A stretch of DNA of 64,000 bases from Comamonas odontotermitis (GTDB lineage Bacteria; Pseudomonadota; Gammaproteobacteria; Burkholderiales; Burkholderiaceae_C). The position numbers and the translations under genes are program-made. Below are positions 12,379-19,491 of the stretch, piece after piece. The notes under the pieces were generated by a model. The model was not told where the DNA came from and ran no database searches. It worked only from the letters and a program-made list of their open reading frames with translations. The stretch is taken from the NCBI RefSeq assembly GCF_014207855.1, contig NZ_JACHKZ010000011.1, forward strand, positions 62,001-126,000, written 5' to 3'. Within the stretch, counting starts at the first letter, position 1; every line of letters starts with the position of its first letter.

Positions 12379-12588
12379 TTCTAATTGTTTTCACCAAGGG
12401 GACATTGGTGCTGTTTGTGCTTGCAGCCAATGCAGCCAAGCAGGATGGGGGGCGGGGGCGTCTCGCATACAAACCCCTGAATGGCGACTGGTTGAGCGTG
12501 TTGTCAGGCGAGCAGGGCAGGCGCCCGCTGCCAAAAATGCGCTTTACCTCCAGGCTTTTCGTGCCTGGATGTTTGCAACTTGATTCAA
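12379..12588. other. Rest of the 440-base spacer between the M20 and heme operons
   Basis: No credible gene is seen. A 102-codon frame from 12405 has no homology-like features and crosses the Fur/promoter region. A 7-bp hairpin TCCAGGC / GCCTGGA lies near 12548-12568 but has no T run. The segment appears to be plain upstream DNA for two divergent operons. Confidence 0.6.
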
Positions 12589-12748: not shown

Positions 12749-15061
12749 ATGCGCTGCATGCCTTCGTCTGAATCCTGCACACTGGCAGATGGCCAGCCCG
12801 GCAAGGTGCTGGCTTTGCAACCGCTGGCGCTGGCTGCATTGCTGTGTGCCGCGCAAGCGGCCGGCGCCCAGACCTCGCCTGAAACGCCTGCCAGGGCTAC
12901 GGCTGCCGCCGCCAACCCGGCCGTCGTTCAGATCGCCGCAGCCGATGGCCCGGTGCTCAAGGAAATGGTGATCAGCGGATCGCGCCACGAGCAGGATCCT
13001 GACGAGTTGCCGATGAGCATTGATGTGCTCAATGCCCAGCAGATGGAAGAGCAGCAGGTGCGCGACATCCGGGATGTGACGCGAGACATGCCCAACGTGT
13101 CCGTCAAGCGCAGCCCGGCGCGGTTCACGCTGGCATCGGGCAGTACCGGGCGCGACCAGAATGCGGGCTTCAACATCCGTGGCCTGGATGGCAACCGGGT
13201 GCTGATGATGGTGGATGGTATCCGCCTGCCGCGCAGCTATGTGTTCAGCGCCAATGCCTTTGGGCGCGATTATCTGGATGTGGGCCTGGTGCAGCGCGTG
13301 GAGGTGGTGCGTGGCGCCACTTCGGCGCTGTATGGCTCGGACGGCATGGCGGGCCTGGTCAACTTCATCACCACCGATCCGTCCAGCCTGCTCAAGGACG
13401 GCAAGACCTTTGGCGGCCGTGCAAGCATTGGCTACGACAGCGAAAACACCGGCAGGACCCTGGGCCTGACGGTGGCTGGCAAGCCCAGCGATGCCGTGGA
13501 GTGGCTGCTGGGCGTCAACCTGGGGCGTAGCCGCGAGCTCAAGAGCATGGGCGACATCGACACCATCGACAGCCGTCGCACCCTGCCCAATCCGCAGCAT
13601 GACAAGGATGCCTCCCTGCTCGGCAAGGTGGTGCTGCGCCCGACAGCCGACCAGAAGCACACCTTCACGGTTGAGCATGTCGACAAAAAGGTGGATTACC
13701 AGCTCTACACGGCACGCACTGCACCGCCGGTCACGGCCTCCACCGCCGTGATCGATTCGGCATCCACCACTGACATGAAACGCACGCGCGGCACCTGGGC
13801 GGGCGAATGGCGCAATTTTGATGCCCCAATGCTGGACGATGTGAAGGCATCGCTGAGCTACCAGAACGCCGATTCGCGCGAGTTCATCTACGAAGACCGC
13901 CTCACTGCTGCAGACCGCACGCGCGATGTGACCTACCAGGAAAAGACTTTCCAGGCCAATGTACAGGCGCGCAAGCTCGTCAAGAGCGGCAGCAGCATGG
14001 CGCAGCAGTTCACCTACGGGCTGGACTATGTGCGTACCGATGTTGAAAACCTGCAGACCGGCCTGACGCCGCCCGTGGGCGAGACCTTTCCGCTCAAGCG
14101 CTTCCCCGATACCACCGAGTCGAGCTGGGCGCTGTATGGGCAGGACGAGATCAGCTTTGGCAACTGGACGATCACGCCCGGTCTGCGCTACGACCATTTC
14201 CGCATCAAGGCCGATCAGGCGGGCTTCAACGCGCAGGCAGTGTCGCTGTCGGGCAATGCCACATCGCCCAAGCTGGGCGTGATGTACCAGGTGAATTCCG
14301 ACTGGCGTGTATTTGGTAACTACGCCAAGGGCTTTCGCGCGCCCAATGCCGGGCAGGTCAATGCATTCTTCGAGAACCCGGTCGGCAACTACAAGACCAT
14401 TCCCAACCCCAATCTGAAGCCGGAGACCAGCCAGAACCTCGAAGTGGGCGTGCGGGGCCGCCTTGCGAATGTCTCGCTCGATGTGGCGGCGTTCACCGGC
14501 CGGTACAAGGATTTCATTGATGACCTGGTGCAGGTGGGTGGGACGGGCAGGCCAGGCGATCCGCTCATCTTCCAGTCCGTCAACCGCGGCAAGGTCAATA
14601 TCAGCGGGCTGGAGGTCAAGGGTCGTGCCGACTGGGGCCGCTATGCAGGCATTGGCTGGAGCACGCCTTTCGCCTGGGGCCGTACCCAGGGGCACGACAC
14701 CACCAGTGGCGAGCCGCTCTCGTCCATCGATCCCCAGCGCCTTACCGTAGGCCTGCGTGCCGATGCCGCCCAGTGGACGGCGCAGCTGGGCCTGAACTAC
14801 TCCCAGGGCAAGAAAGCCAAGGACACGGTCAACCCTTCGGGCGGTACCCAGTTCCTGAACCCGTCGGCCACCGTGGTGGATCTGACCGCGCAATGGCGCA
14901 TCCGCAAGGATTTGCGCCTGAACGTCGGCCTCTACAACCTGACCGACAAGAAGGTCTGGCGCTGGTCGGATGTGAGGGGCCTCGCCACCAGCTCGCCAGT
15001 GATCGATTCCTACACCCAGCCCGGGCGGTCCGCCAAGGTCACCCTGGTGGCAGAGTTTTAA
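12749..15061 (+). CDS. TonB-dependent outer-membrane heme/hemoglobin receptor
   Basis: This is a ligand-gated outer-membrane transporter of about 770 residues. A signal peptide (KVLALQPLALAALLCAAQAAGA) is followed by a plug domain (PMSIDVLNAQQMEEQQVRDI ... GFNIRGLDGNRVLMMVDGIR ... QRVEVVRGATSALYGSDGMA) and a 22-strand barrel ending in Phe. The FRAP ... NPNL motif pair of the heme receptor family is present (FRAPNAG and IPNPNLKPE), and hmuS and hmuTUV follow in the same direction. Within the FRAP-NPNL segment there is no His; a Tyr is there instead (codon 14390-14392). The start is uncertain: the frame opens at a TTG (12692), with GTG 12725 and ATG 12749 or 12758 as alternatives, none with a strong Shine-Dalgarno. 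ATG 12749 is chosen for a plausible signal peptide. Confidence 0.93.
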   Translation: MRCMPSSESCTLADGQPGKVLALQPLALAALLCAAQAAGAQTSPETPARATAAAANPAVVQIAAADGPVLKEMVISGSRHEQDPDELPMSIDVLNAQQMEEQQVRDIRDVTRDMPNVSVKRSPARFTLASGSTGRDQNAGFNIRGLDGNRVLMMVDGIRLPRSYVFSANAFGRDYLDVGLVQRVEVVRGATSALYGSDGMAGLVNFITTDPSSLLKDGKTFGGRASIGYDSENTGRTLGLTVAGKPSDAVEWLLGVNLGRSRELKSMGDIDTIDSRRTLPNPQHDKDASLLGKVVLRPTADQKHTFTVEHVDKKVDYQLYTARTAPPVTASTAVIDSASTTDMKRTRGTWAGEWRNFDAPMLDDVKASLSYQNADSREFIYEDRLTAADRTRDVTYQEKTFQANVQARKLVKSGSSMAQQFTYGLDYVRTDVENLQTGLTPPVGETFPLKRFPDTTESSWALYGQDEISFGNWTITPGLRYDHFRIKADQAGFNAQAVSLSGNATSPKLGVMYQVNSDWRVFGNYAKGFRAPNAGQVNAFFENPVGNYKTIPNPNLKPETSQNLEVGVRGRLANVSLDVAAFTGRYKDFIDDLVQVGGTGRPGDPLIFQSVNRGKVNISGLEVKGRADWGRYAGIGWSTPFAWGRTQGHDTTSGEPLSSIDPQRLTVGLRADAAQWTAQLGLNYSQGKKAKDTVNPSGGTQFLNPSATVVDLTAQWRIRKDLRLNVGLYNLTDKKVWRWSDVRGLATSSPVIDSYTQPGRSAKVTLVAEF

Positions 15062-15134: not shown

Positions 15135-16316
15135 ATGATCACCACGAAAACCAAGCCTGCCGCCTTGACCAGCGACCGCGCTGCACAGATCCGCGAAGCC
15201 TATGCCGCGCAACGCGCCAAGGGCCTGCGTGCCAAGGATGCTGCTGAAGCCGCTGGCAGCAGCGAGGGTGAGGCCATTGCCGCGCATGCCATGCCACTGT
15301 TGGCTGCGGATACCCGCGAGGCCAGCACGCTGCAGGTGCAGCCGCTGCAAGCCCCGCAGGGCGGGTGGATCGAGGTGCTCAAGGCGCTGGAGCCCTGCGG
15401 CCCTGTGATGGCGCTGACGCGCAACGCCAGTACCGTGCATGAAAAGACCGGTACCTACACGGACCTCAGCGCCAGTGGCGAGCCGGGCATGCAGGTGGGG
15501 CTGGCGGTGGGGGAAGACATTGACCTGCGTCTCTTCTTTGCCAGCTGGCACGCAGCCTATGCGGTGCAGGAGGCGTCTGCCCACGGCGGCAGCACCGTGC
15601 TGCGCAGTTTGCAGTTCTACAACCGCGCGGGCCGTGCGGTGCACAAGGTGTTTGCCCGTGAGGCGACCGACCTGGCCGCCTGGGGCGCGCTGGTGGCGCG
15701 CTTTGCCTGCGCAGCAGATGTGGATGCGGCTGCCTTGCCCGGCTTTGACGCACCTGCGCCACGCCAGGTTATAAGCGTGCCGGCCGACAGCAGCGTGGAT
15801 GTGCCAGCGCTGCAATCGGCATGGGCGGCGATGCAGGATACGCACGAGTTCTTCAGCGTCATCAAAAACGCGGGTGCCGAACGTCAGCAGTCCTTCCGTC
15901 TGGTGCAGGGGCGCTTTGCCTGGCCGCTGGCCAAGGACAGCGTCACCCAGCTCCTGAACGAGGCCAGTTTTGCAGGCACGCCCATCATGGTGTTCGTCAG
16001 CAGTGGCGGTTGCATCCAGATTCACAGTGGCCCGGTGCAACGCGTGGAGCCCATGACGACGCCAACTGCCCAATGGATCAATGTGCTCGATGCAGGCTTC
16101 AACCTGCACATGCGCACCGACATGATTGCCAACGTCTGGCTCGTGGAAAAGCCCACCAGCGACGGCATCGTCACCTCGGTGGAAGTGTTTGATGGCCATG
16201 GCGATCTGATGGCCATGTTCTTTGGTGCGCGCAAGCCCGGCAAGCCCGAGTTGGCCCCCTGGCGCGCACTGGCAACCAGCCTGCCGCGTCTGGATGCCCA
16301 GGCGGTTGCGGCGTAA
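15135..16316 (+). CDS. hmuS: Hemin-degrading/heme-trafficking factor HmuS
   Basis: This 393-residue cytoplasmic protein of the HmuS/ChuS/PhuS family takes heme delivered by HmuTUV and degrades it or passes it to heme oxygenase. It has the duplicated family layout, with repeat 1 holding LRSLQFYNRAGRAVHKVF. The His in AVHKVF (residue 170) corresponds to the axial heme ligand of ChuS and PhuS. Repeat 2 holds WINVLDAGFNLHMRTD and VTSVEVFDGHGDLMAMFFG. An AAAAAGGAGC site, part of a dispersed repeat, lies seven bases before the ATG. It follows the receptor gene by 73 bases and precedes hmuT by 10 bases, so it is in the operon. Confidence 0.95.
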   Translation: MITTKTKPAALTSDRAAQIREAYAAQRAKGLRAKDAAEAAGSSEGEAIAAHAMPLLAADTREASTLQVQPLQAPQGGWIEVLKALEPCGPVMALTRNASTVHEKTGTYTDLSASGEPGMQVGLAVGEDIDLRLFFASWHAAYAVQEASAHGGSTVLRSLQFYNRAGRAVHKVFAREATDLAAWGALVARFACAADVDAAALPGFDAPAPRQVISVPADSSVDVPALQSAWAAMQDTHEFFSVIKNAGAERQQSFRLVQGRFAWPLAKDSVTQLLNEASFAGTPIMVFVSSGGCIQIHSGPVQRVEPMTTPTAQWINVLDAGFNLHMRTDMIANVWLVEKPTSDGIVTSVEVFDGHGDLMAMFFGARKPGKPELAPWRALATSLPRLDAQAVAA

Positions 16317-16326
16317 GGAGGCGGCC

Positions 16327-17325
16327 ATGGATGCGTTTTCTCGCGCTGGCCAGCGCAGCAACAGCTGCCTAGCCAGCCGCCGTGCGTTGCTGCTGGCTGC
16401 AGGTGGCACCGCCCTGATGCCTTTGGGTACCCTGGCGATTGCCCAATCTGCGCCGGTTGCTGCAAAAAATGCAGCAAATGCCGCAGATGGCGGCGCCAAG
16501 GCGGCGCTGCAGCCATATGTGGGCATTGCGCCGCCAACAGCAACGCGCCTGATCAGTCTGAGCGGCGCACTCACCGAGATCGTCTACCAACTGGGGGCCC
16601 AGGCGCTGCTGGTGGGCAGCGACACCACCAGCAACTACCCCGAAGCGGCCAACCGCATGCCCAAGGTGGGCTACGTGCGCCAGCTGGCCGCCGAAGGCGT
16701 GCTGTCGCTCAAGCCCGATGTAGTGATCGGCACCACCGAAGCGGGCCCGCCCGTGGTGCTGCAGCAGATTGCCCAGACCCGCGTTGCCATCGCTCTGGTG
16801 CAATCGGACCACAGCTGGGATGAAGTACTGCGCAAGATCCGGCTGGTGGGGCAGGCTACTGGCAGGCAGGCGCAGGCCGCACAACTGGCCCAGGATTTGC
16901 AGAAGGAGTGGGACACCGTGCAGGCCCAGGTACGCGCCACCGTGGCGACAGGCCGCTTGCCTCGCGCACTGTTTGTGCTCTCGCACAGCGGAACGCCGCA
17001 GGTGGCGGGCCAGGGCACGGCGGGCGATGCGCTGCTGCGCATGGGCGGGGCCAGCAATGTCATGCAAGGCTTTGGCGGCTATCGGCCGCTGACGGCAGAA
17101 GCCATGGCGCAGGCAGCGCCCCAGGTGATTGTGACAACGACACAAGGCGTGGAGGCGGTGGGAGGAGAGGCCAAGTTCTGGGCGCGCCCGGAACTTGCGC
17201 TGACCCCGGCCTACAAGAACAAGGCATTGATCGCCCTGGAAGCCAGCCAGCTGCTCGGCTTTGGCCCGCGCCTGCCGCTGGCGGTACGTACCCTGCACCA
17301 GGGTTTGCAGGCCGTGCAGGCATGA
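16327..17325 (+). CDS. hmuT: Periplasmic heme-binding protein of the HmuTUV ABC transporter
   Basis: The 332-residue class III binding protein carries heme from the outer-membrane receptor to HmuUV. The N-terminus has a twin-arginine-like signal (ASRRALLLAAGG). The mature part shows RLISLSGALTEIVYQLGA and SDTTSNYPEAANRMPKVGYV; the Tyr in VGYVRQLAAEG corresponds to the heme-ligating Tyr of ShuT/PhuT. The start at 16327 is used because the upstream in-frame extension lies inside hmuS. Its TGA overlaps the ATG of hmuU (ATGA), implying translational coupling. Confidence 0.94.
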   Translation: MDAFSRAGQRSNSCLASRRALLLAAGGTALMPLGTLAIAQSAPVAAKNAANAADGGAKAALQPYVGIAPPTATRLISLSGALTEIVYQLGAQALLVGSDTTSNYPEAANRMPKVGYVRQLAAEGVLSLKPDVVIGTTEAGPPVVLQQIAQTRVAIALVQSDHSWDEVLRKIRLVGQATGRQAQAAQLAQDLQKEWDTVQAQVRATVATGRLPRALFVLSHSGTPQVAGQGTAGDALLRMGGASNVMQGFGGYRPLTAEAMAQAAPQVIVTTTQGVEAVGGEAKFWARPELALTPAYKNKALIALEASQLLGFGPRLPLAVRTLHQGLQAVQA

Positions 17326-18542
17326 GCGATGCCGTGACTGCAACTGGCGCCGTGAGCGCCCGCCCGGTGCCGGGTACGGAGCGGCTTTCGCCATCGCAAT
17401 CTGCCAGCCCGGCGCGCGCTGGGCGGCTGGGCGTATCGAATGGCGCATCAGTTTCCATGGCGCCTGGTGTTCAAGCAAAACGCCAGAAGGGTGTATTTCG
17501 ACTGAGAAAATCCCACACCATTGGCCTGATGGCTCTGCTGGCGCTGACCGCGTTTGTATTTGCGGCCGGGCAGGGCGCTTTCGCCATCGACGCGGCACAG
17601 CTTCCCGCCATTGCCTGGAGCGCGCTGCAGCACTGGTGGCAGGGCGGCACGGACGCCGGCAGTACCGAGCAGCAGGTGTTTGCAGCCATCCGCGCGCCGC
17701 GTCTGGTGCTGGGCTTGGCAGCGGGCGCCGGACTGGGTCTGGCTGGCGCGTTGATGCAGGGGCTGTTTCGCAACCCGCTGGCAGACCCGGGGCTGATCGG
17801 CGTGAGCAGCGGAGCCGCGCTGGCGGCTGCCGCATTGATTGTGATGGGCGCGCTGTGGTTCCCATCGGTGCCGCGCAGCCTGGGCAGCTGGCCGCTGATG
17901 CTGTGCGCCTTCGCAGGGGGGCTGGTGACGACAGGCCTGATTTACGGACTGGCGCAGGCAGGCGGCGGCACGCGCATCGGCGTCATGCTGCTGGCGGGTG
18001 TGGCCATCAATGCGCTGGCCATGGCGGGCTTGGGTCTGCTCAGTTTTCTGTCGACCGATGAGCAATTGCGCAACCTGCAACTGTGGCTGATGGGCAGTCT
18101 GGGCAATGCGCGCTGGCCAGTCGCAATCATGGCGTGCGCCGTGGTGTCCATCAGTGCCTGGGTGGCGCAGCGCTTGGCACAGCCCCTCAACGCGATTGCA
18201 CTGGGCGAGGCGCAGGCCAGCCTGATGGGCGTGGCGGTGGAGCGCACCAAGCGTCTGGCGGTCATCGTGGCGGCGCTGGTGGTGGGTTGCATCACGGCAG
18301 CCTGCGGCATGATCGGCTTCATTGGCCTGGTGGCGCCGCACTGGGTGCGGTTGATCGCCGGGCCGGATCACCGTGTGGTGCTGCCCGCTTCCGCCTTGTT
18401 GGGCGCTGCCATGGTGGTGTTTGCCGATGCCTTTGCGCGCACGGTGGTTGCTCCGGCTGAGTTGCCGCTGGGCGTGCTGACGGCGCTGGTCGGGGTTCCG
18501 CTGTTTTTGGCCATGCTGCGCCAGTTTCGGCGGCAACTGTAG
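17322..18542 (+). CDS. hmuU: Heme ABC transporter permease
   Basis: This 406-residue FecCD/BtuC-type inner-membrane permease should form ten transmembrane helices. Family motifs are RAPRLVLGLAAGAGLGLAGA, LMQGLFRNPLADPGLIGVSS, IGFIGLVAPHWVR (the coupling loop near the ATPase) and the late LPLGVLTALVGVPLFLAML. The first 70 residues are a low-complexity cytoplasmic extension (Ala/Pro/Ser-rich) before the first helix, longer than in most homologues. The frame is open upstream to 16908, but that part is the shadow of hmuT; the ATG overlapping the hmuT stop is the logical start. It forms the transporter core with HmuV. Confidence 0.95.
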   Translation: MSDAVTATGAVSARPVPGTERLSPSQSASPARAGRLGVSNGASVSMAPGVQAKRQKGVFRLRKSHTIGLMALLALTAFVFAAGQGAFAIDAAQLPAIAWSALQHWWQGGTDAGSTEQQVFAAIRAPRLVLGLAAGAGLGLAGALMQGLFRNPLADPGLIGVSSGAALAAAALIVMGALWFPSVPRSLGSWPLMLCAFAGGLVTTGLIYGLAQAGGGTRIGVMLLAGVAINALAMAGLGLLSFLSTDEQLRNLQLWLMGSLGNARWPVAIMACAVVSISAWVAQRLAQPLNAIALGEAQASLMGVAVERTKRLAVIVAALVVGCITAACGMIGFIGLVAPHWVRLIAGPDHRVVLPASALLGAAMVVFADAFARTVVAPAELPLGVLTALVGVPLFLAMLRQFRRQL

Positions 18543-18552
18543 GGAGGGGCGC

Positions 18553-19491
18553 ATGTTCAAACCATTCGAGGTTTTCAGGGAGTCTGGCAATCCGATGCCT
18601 GCCCTTGAAGCGCAGCTAGCTATTCATAAAGTAGCGAAAGAGAATGCGCAGGGTCTTTACGCCAGCCCGCCTGCCCAGGGCAGCGGCTGGCAGCTGGACC
18701 AGTTGGAGGTGGGGGTGCCCGGTGGCGATGTGCTGGTGCGCCTGCACACCCACATAGCACCTGGCAGGCTCACGGCCATCGTTGGACCTAACGGCGCTGG
18801 AAAATCCAGCCTGCTGGCAACCTTGACGGGCCAGTGGGCGCCCCATGCAGGCCAGATTCTGTTCGATGGCCAGCCGCTCACCAGATGGCCGTCCGCTGAC
18901 CTGGCCCGGCGCCGCGCCATGATGGTGCAGGATGGCTCTGTGGCCTTTGACTTTACGGTGCAGGAAGTCGTGGAACTAGGTCGCTATGCCCACCGCCTGC
19001 AACCCAGCCGCAACGAGGCGGCCATTGTTCATGATGCCATGGCGGCCACGCAGATGGAGGCCTTTGCAGGCCGCAGCGTGCGCAGCCTCTCTGGCGGGGA
19101 ACGTGCGCGAGCGCACCTGGCACGTGCACTGGCACAGGTGTGGGAAGCGCCTTCTGGCGACCAGGCGCGCTGGCTTCTGCTCGATGAACCCACCGCCGCC
19201 ATGGATTTGGCCTGGCAGCACCGCACCATGGATCTGCTGCAACACTGGGCGCAGGTGCGGGGCGTGGGTGTGGTCGTTGTGGTGCACGATATGAATCTGG
19301 CACTGCGCTATGCGGATGATGCGCTGCTGGTGCACGGCGGCGGCTGCCTGCATGGCCCTGTGGGCGACGTGCTGTCGCTACAGACCATGCGCGATGTGTG
19401 GGGTGTGGGCTGCTTTGCCGCCACGGCACCAGACGGGACGCAGCAGTACCTGTTTGCAGGTGCCGACGTGGGTATGGGCTTGGGCGGGTAG
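18553..19491 (+). CDS. hmuV: Heme ABC transporter ATP-binding protein
   Basis: The 312-residue ABC ATPase energises heme import. Walker A GPNGAGKSS (78-86), Q-loop MVQDGS (124-129), signature LSGGE (179-183), Walker B WLLLDEPT (207-214) and the switch His in VVVHDMN are intact. It is about 45 residues longer at the N-terminus than usual HmuV. The extra segment (residues 1-45) is not ABC-like, and part of it is encoded by a copy of the dispersed AGCTAT element (18609-18635). GGGAGGGG just before the ATG at 18553 supports translation of the extension. An alternative ATG at 18595 would still include the element. It is the last gene of the heme operon. Confidence 0.94.
   Translation: MFKPFEVFRESGNPMPALEAQLAIHKVAKENAQGLYASPPAQGSGWQLDQLEVGVPGGDVLVRLHTHIAPGRLTAIVGPNGAGKSSLLATLTGQWAPHAGQILFDGQPLTRWPSADLARRRAMMVQDGSVAFDFTVQEVVELGRYAHRLQPSRNEAAIVHDAMAATQMEAFAGRSVRSLSGGERARAHLARALAQVWEAPSGDQARWLLLDEPTAAMDLAWQHRTMDLLQHWAQVRGVGVVVVVHDMNLALRYADDALLVHGGGCLHGPVGDVLSLQTMRDVWGVGCFAATAPDGTQQYLFAGADVGMGLGG
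18609..18635 (+). repeat. Dispersed AGCTAT element inside hmuV
   Basis: A 27-base copy of the pattern AGCGC-n-AG-n-AGCTAT ... AAAG-n-AGC lies in frame within the N-terminal coding extension of hmuV. Compare the copies at 15102, 48888 (reverse), 57019 and 61240. Confidence 0.65.

Follow-up and report, generated by a model that had tools for sequence, protein, structure and literature searches.

A PhuR/BhuR-type heme receptor in the hmuRSTUV operon of Comamonas odontotermitis, with a predicted tyrosine heme ligand and no histidine in the plug

The window analysed here, a stretch of 64,000 nucleotides from Comamonas odontotermitis, encodes an ordinary PhuR/BhuR-type TonB-dependent heme receptor within an hmuRSTUV operon (Table 1). 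Tyr548, its predicted ligand between the FRAP and NPNL motifs, very probably binds heme, the protein serving as the ordinary receptor of hmuRSTUV uptake. The initial annotation regarded the receptor as a deviation from the usual His ligands. This framing is not upheld: among aligned relatives, a Tyr without a plug His is the rule of its own receptor family, so the His pattern of Yersinia and Shigella is not the standard by which to judge it. The sequence state is real, and it is explained by membership of a known receptor type. A reading of lost ligands is replaced by a testable rule, namely that in PhuR/BhuR-type receptors a Tyr should be sought and not the enteric His pair; the textbook FRAP-His-NPNL motif would misjudge many beta-, alpha-, and gammaproteobacterial receptors.

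Table 1. Coordinates of the receptor gene, its candidate ligand positions, and the downstream genes in the window
Feature	Position	Strand	Basis
hmuR/bhuR, TonB-dependent heme receptor, PhuR-type, 770 aa	12749..15061	+	TIGR01786, TIGR01785, Pfam Plug + barrel, PhuR 8the
Plug loop following VDGIR, residues 155-184, His-free with Tyr164 and Tyr175	13211..13300	+	
FRAP motif, residues 529-532	14333..14344	+	
Tyr548 (TAC), predicted axial heme ligand, = PhuR Tyr529	14390..14392	+	HMMER alignment to 8the; relatives
NPNL motif, residues 553-556	14405..14416	+	
hmuS, HemS/PhuS-type heme-trafficking/degradation protein	15135..16316	+	PF05171 236 bits
hmuS ligand position His237	15843-15845	+	opposite HemS His196 (2j0p)
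hmuT, periplasmic heme-binding protein	16327..17325	+	top match 5b58 chain T, 3.3e-64; HmuT 3md9
hmuU, FecCD-type permease, start codon picked by eye	17331..18542	+	PF01032 269 bits
hmuV, ABC ATPase, nearest a heme ABC ATPase model	18553..19491	+	NF010068 257.6 bits, just below cut-off 261

Identity of the receptor and alignment to PhuR

The receptor scores above the cut-offs of two NCBIfam heme-receptor models, TIGR01786 (412 bits vs. 323.75) and TIGR01785 (393.1 bits vs. 316.85), and contains the Pfam Plug and barrel domains. Its top PDB sequence match is the heme-bound PhuR of Pseudomonas aeruginosa (8the, E 2.4e-100), with ShuA at 2.3e-30. An AlphaFold2 model, built from 28 family sequences and modelled without ligand (pLDDT 82.6, pTM 0.82), also has 8the as its top match in both Foldseek (TM 0.80/0.86) and VIA-align (Z 40.6, rmsd 2.1, 657 aligned residues, vs. 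Z 37.3-38.1 for ChuA and ShuA); at residues 541-550, the pLDDT is only ~64. Translation could alternatively begin at a TTG further upstream (12692).

In the HMMER alignment to 8the, the receptor sequence NYKTIPNPNLKPE lies opposite GYHIEPNPNLKPE of PhuR, gap-free around Tyr548 (NYKTIPNPNL in the receptor, GYHIEPNPNL in PhuR), and Tyr548 falls on chain index 542. The PhuR plug sequence QTHRNY, with its His at chain index 137, is opposite AFGRDY, the column of this His corresponding to Gly172/Arg173 of the receptor. The numbering of the 8the entry is apparently 13 below the chain index (last aligned residue 764 vs. 777 in the chain), and with this offset the two indices become Tyr529 and His124, which Smith et al. 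in 2015 are said to have described as the heme ligand pair of PhuR. By this alignment, the receptor, which shares the fold of PhuR at 34.5% identity, retains its FRAP-NPNL Tyr (548 for 529) but not its plug His (Gly-Arg in place of His124). The initial statement that PhuR uses Tyr with His agrees with the His-Tyr heme motif given for PhuR in a section of a 2025 review (PMC12670364); a section of a 2013 review already describes PhuR as missing part of the standard FRAP/NPNL-His set (PMC3792355).

Histidine and tyrosine in the plug and the FRAP-NPNL segment

The residues first noticed in the two segments were borne out. The linker from FRAP to NPNL, NAGQVNAFFENPVGNYKTIP, contains Tyr548 as its single Tyr and no His, while the plug loop after VDGIR carries two Tyr residues and the whole plug domain (residues 85-202) is free of His. 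Because the receptor is His-poor, with 6 His per 770 residues, the absence of His is unsurprising by itself: given this content, a His-free 20-residue linker would arise by chance with P ~0.86 and a His-free 118-residue plug with P ~0.40. The feature beyond chance is Tyr548, not the missing His. Neither the HemR/ShuA-type pattern (a His in the FRAP-NPNL segment plus a His in the plug) nor the pattern of PhuR itself (plug His124 as the second ligand) is found in the receptor. The PhuR/BhuR-type pattern is, both as a Tyr at PhuR position 529 and as linked hmuSTUV/phuSTUV genes, recognized by Pfam/NCBIfam and PDB matches. Yersinia HemR, Shigella ShuA, and E. coli ChuA share with the receptor the TonB-dependent heme receptor fold and the FRAP and NPNL motifs but differ in carrying His in both the plug and the FRAP-NPNL segment (letters from 3fhh), the heme ligands of these receptors; ShuA and ChuA are ~22% identical to the receptor.

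The hmuSTUV genes

The genes downstream of the receptor correspond in type to the phuSTUV-type operon of PhuR, as mentioned in a passage of a study of Stenotrophomonas (PMC9241770). In HmuT, the Tyr of VGYVRQ proposed as a ligand is confirmed, with Tyr116 and His220 (VLSHSG) opposite the Tyr and His of HmuT/BhuT. HmuS was correctly said to retain its ligand, but the residue named for it was wrong: His170 (AVHKVF) is aligned with a HemS His other than residue 196, and by counting along the HemS chain it is His237 (QDTHEFF) that stands opposite His196, the heme ligand of HemS. Upstream of the operon, the best 19-base match to a Fur-box consensus was 12/19, and a more Fur-like stretch at 12585 gave 11/19 against the same consensus; since 12/19 was often reached by single-base shuffles (71/500), no Fur site is claimed. 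The hemP motif [KR]LIL[TRSN]K was absent from all six frames of the 64-kb window.

Position 548 among relatives

At a threshold of 1e-60, relatives were found in 56 of 200 genomes of the family; an order-level sample yielded matches in 41 of 300 genomes (12/42 places without a locus) and a class-level sample in 14 of 274, the receptor's own genome being included in each count. Named contigs supplied 79 loci from the best 80 of 545 matches. Fifteen far loci (~24-27% identity; L153, L162-L170, L181-L185) were dropped by eye, L182 and L158 gave no alignable match, and duplicates of the receptor and of L020 (L171, L172), as well as the receptor and the paralogs of its own genome (L001-L008), were skipped. 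The remaining 159 family rows were aligned with PhuR and ShuA, in line with a proposal of the initial annotation; Tyr548 is placed on PhuR Tyr529, and His124 has no counterpart. A relative is termed hmuS-linked when an hmuS profile matches anywhere in its retrieved stretch, the profiles being derived from the receptor's own neighbouring genes and their matches.

Position 548 is occupied by Tyr in 134 of the 159 family rows, Val in 9, Ala in 6, Asn, His, and Leu in 2 each, and Phe and Ile in 1 each, with 2 gaps; L033 is scored as Tyr with an ambiguous alignment at this site. Among the matches listed, Tyr548 is present in 62/62 hmuS-linked relatives (60 distinct sequences). With the far rows dropped, it occurs in 69/69 relatives linked to hmuS or hmuT, or in 69/70 if the dropped row L184 is counted, which has Asn at the aligned site and hmuT and hmuU profile matches nearby; L184 and L185 carry a His in the FRAP-NPNL segment and are HemR/ShuA-type in appearance. 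Across residues 70-770 of the 62 hmuS-linked rows, 23 positions are invariant, among which Tyr548 is the only Tyr or His, and each of the other 20 Tyr of the receptor is kept in 0 to 57 of these rows. His occupies the PhuR His124 column in 0/62 hmuS-linked and 1/159 family rows; to judge from this column, the plug His is a mark of PhuR and not of the wider family. Neither the plug loop nor the FRAP-NPNL segment contains a His in 56/62 hmuS-linked relatives, the six exceptions having one in a single segment (plug loop in L016; FRAP-NPNL in L035, L037, L068, L072, and L076). With the Tyr universal, His124 absent, and both segments mostly His-less in these 62 relatives, the His-less state is normal for the family, and the receptor, with a Tyr outside and no plug His, is no oddity. 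A FastTree tree computed without the FRAP-NPNL columns places it among Tyr-bearing, hmuS-linked receptors.

Other letters than Tyr stand at position 548 in 23/159 family rows, besides the 2 gaps, and hmuS was found at 0/19 of those with readable flanks. The Tyr is present but no hmuS lies nearby in 48 flanked relatives. A Fisher test of Tyr against hmuS, which ignores descent, gives P 1.1e-6 for the 129 of 157 lettered rows that are flanked on one side by 1200 bases or more. When descent is considered, a sign test is not significant, and the Tyr-hmuS link is not independent of descent, with only ~1-2 informative pairs on the tree. Within the receptor clade of L196, L029 and L098, which lie near the receptor's group, keep the Tyr with no hmuS in the retrieved stretch; in G086, from which L029 comes, HemS matches are absent altogether. 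Two divergent members, L062 and L139, have His at the aligned Tyr (ATFIHDF and ATFVHDF), so their ligand may have switched to His.

Proposed mode of heme binding

The earlier suggestion that heme may be bound by Tyr is well supported by the alignment of Tyr548 with PhuR Tyr529. Heme would be caught at the outer face of the receptor by Tyr548 in the FRAP-NPNL loop, with its phenolate as ligand to ferric heme, drawn past the plug using TonB energy, passed to HmuT, and then delivered via HmuUV to HmuS; ligation of the iron by Tyr548 is the step that we infer. The second axial ligand may be water, plug Tyr164 or Tyr175, or none. The most economical arrangement would pair the one Tyr with water or with a plug residue that is weak and variable, since within loop 156-184 not a single His, Tyr, Met, or Cys is common to all hmuS-linked relatives. 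Since the plug His of PhuR is missing here, binding could be weaker or different.

Two characterized systems are comparable in this respect. The Stenotrophomonas receptor L149, 35.6% identical to PhuR, has the Tyr and is His-free in both segments like the receptor, with hemP ~100 bases upstream of its open frame. According to passages of the Stenotrophomonas study, deletion identifies HemA (Smlt0795) as the hemin receptor in S. maltophilia; it is 37% identical to PhuR and, unlike the receptor, belongs to a hemP-hemA operon without hmuSTUV (PMC9241770). L149 is likely an ortholog of HemA and hence a His-less receptor whose function is likely proven. Burkholderia BhuR/HmuR (bhuRSTUV), represented by L108, resembles the receptor in having hmuS in the locus, Tyr548, and no His in either segment but differs in its 37% identity and its different tree branch; bhuRSTUV of Burkholderia is linked to heme use in part of a published account (PMC5681537).

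It is unlikely, though worth weighing, that heme is held between two tyrosines, with plug Tyr164 or Tyr175 in place of PhuR His124. The plug loop of the receptor offers both residues, and at least one Tyr occurs at 156-184 in 51/62 hmuS-linked relatives (Tyr175 in 40/62, Tyr164 in 32/62), but the loop is entirely without Tyr in the other 11, and PhuR, which has its His124, also carries a Tyr at column 175. Ferric heme with two Tyr ligands is, moreover, unusual for receptors, which counts against such an arrangement.

A second ligand provided by a His elsewhere in the receptor (His284, 304, 310, 483, or 649, the five His beyond residue 80) is improbable. His304 is present in 26/27 close Tyr-type rows, the receptor included, but equally in 14/14 rows of the Tyr-less clade described below, and both His304 and His310 fall within a predicted barrel strand (302-318) of the AlphaFold2 model. 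The 62 hmuS-linked rows keep His304 in 26, His310 in 24, and His483 in 13, and at 284 and 649 His does not rank among the two most frequent letters. That the protein is not a heme receptor, or serves a specific hemoprotein instead of free heme, is highly improbable: the enteric His ligands are missing and transferrin receptors (TbpA) occur among both the sequence and the fold matches, but hmuSTUV lies downstream, the heme-receptor models score above cut-off, PhuR is the top match, and no sequence feature indicates one hemoprotein. The preference for another hemoprotein source that was initially considered finds no support in anything examined.

Tyr-less relatives and NirS-like genes

A Tyr-less clade of 14 rows, mostly from the receptor's own family, is nested among Tyr-bearing, hmuS-linked receptors in the FastTree tree; 13 rows have another letter than Tyr, and the fourteenth is the ambiguous L033. 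A cytochrome d1-domain gene, whose product is NirS-like (~570 aa, including a cytochrome c portion), was found at 11 of 13 loci of this clade (L186-L195, L197, L117, L099) and was absent from L186 and L117. It is divergent within ~0.5 kb of the receptor at 9/13 loci and lies ~6 kb away in L191 and ~11 kb away in L197, whereas it occurs at 0/28 chosen Tyr-type loci. In chosen genomes of the receptor's family, supplemented by G433 from a different family, cytochrome d1 was matched strongly (>470 bits) in 11/11 Tyr-less vs. 0/15 Tyr-type genomes and HemS in 1/11 vs. 13/14, the latter count being without the receptor's own genome. Elsewhere in the tree, L128, L142, L143, L145, and L179 are Tyr-less and near a cytochrome d1 gene too.

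The Tyr is nevertheless kept in L141 and L154 despite a nearby cytochrome d1 gene, and in L088, before which a nirS-like gene lies at 1.7 kb (G221). Outside the receptor's family, Tyr and nirS often occur in one genome, mostly far apart, as in G212 (L081), G221 (L088), G231 (L076), G238 (L085), G323 (L079), G329 (L073), G400 (L082), G413 (L089), and G471 (L083). A general link to nirS was rejected: among the matches listed, a receptor-like match lies within ~1-1.5 kb at 3/60 nirS loci, of which L258 (same genome as L179) is the only clear family member, L217 and L222 being weak plug matches (31-34% over ~150 residues). Loss of the Tyr is thus seen in receptors beside nirS and not in nirS genomes at large, and a change of cargo in these nirS-adjacent receptors would fit this pattern. 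Among the matches listed by a literature search, judged by titles, no title names a link between Tyr loss and nirS.

A broader reading, which we hold only tentatively, is that most of the family uses one extracellular Tyr without a conserved plug ligand, the His-Tyr pair of PhuR being a special case, and that at least two nirS-adjacent lineages lost the Tyr, suggesting a change of cargo. It is rated lower because Tyr-bearing receptors occur in nirS genomes. If true, Tyr548 would be a one-residue marker separating heme importers from look-alikes, and the solved PhuR structure would represent only one variant of heme capture.

A role of the Tyr-less clade in copper transport, an idea based on part of a report on CrtA/BfrG (PMC12914433), was not adopted; no COX1, COX2, or SCO gene was present at 11/13 loci, and CrtA/BfrG group separately by sequence, in a cluster that is for the most part linked to PepSY genes. 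At L117 and L197, both Tyr-less, COX1, COX2, and SCO1/SenC-like genes lie within ~6 kb, which hints at a connection to respiration or copper. In G027, receptors of both kinds, Tyr-less L064 and Tyr-type L061, share one genome. A Tyr-less genome, G196, has hmuSTUV on another contig (L198, contig 3), where these genes adjoin a TonB receptor only ~25% identical to the HmuR/BhuR receptor.
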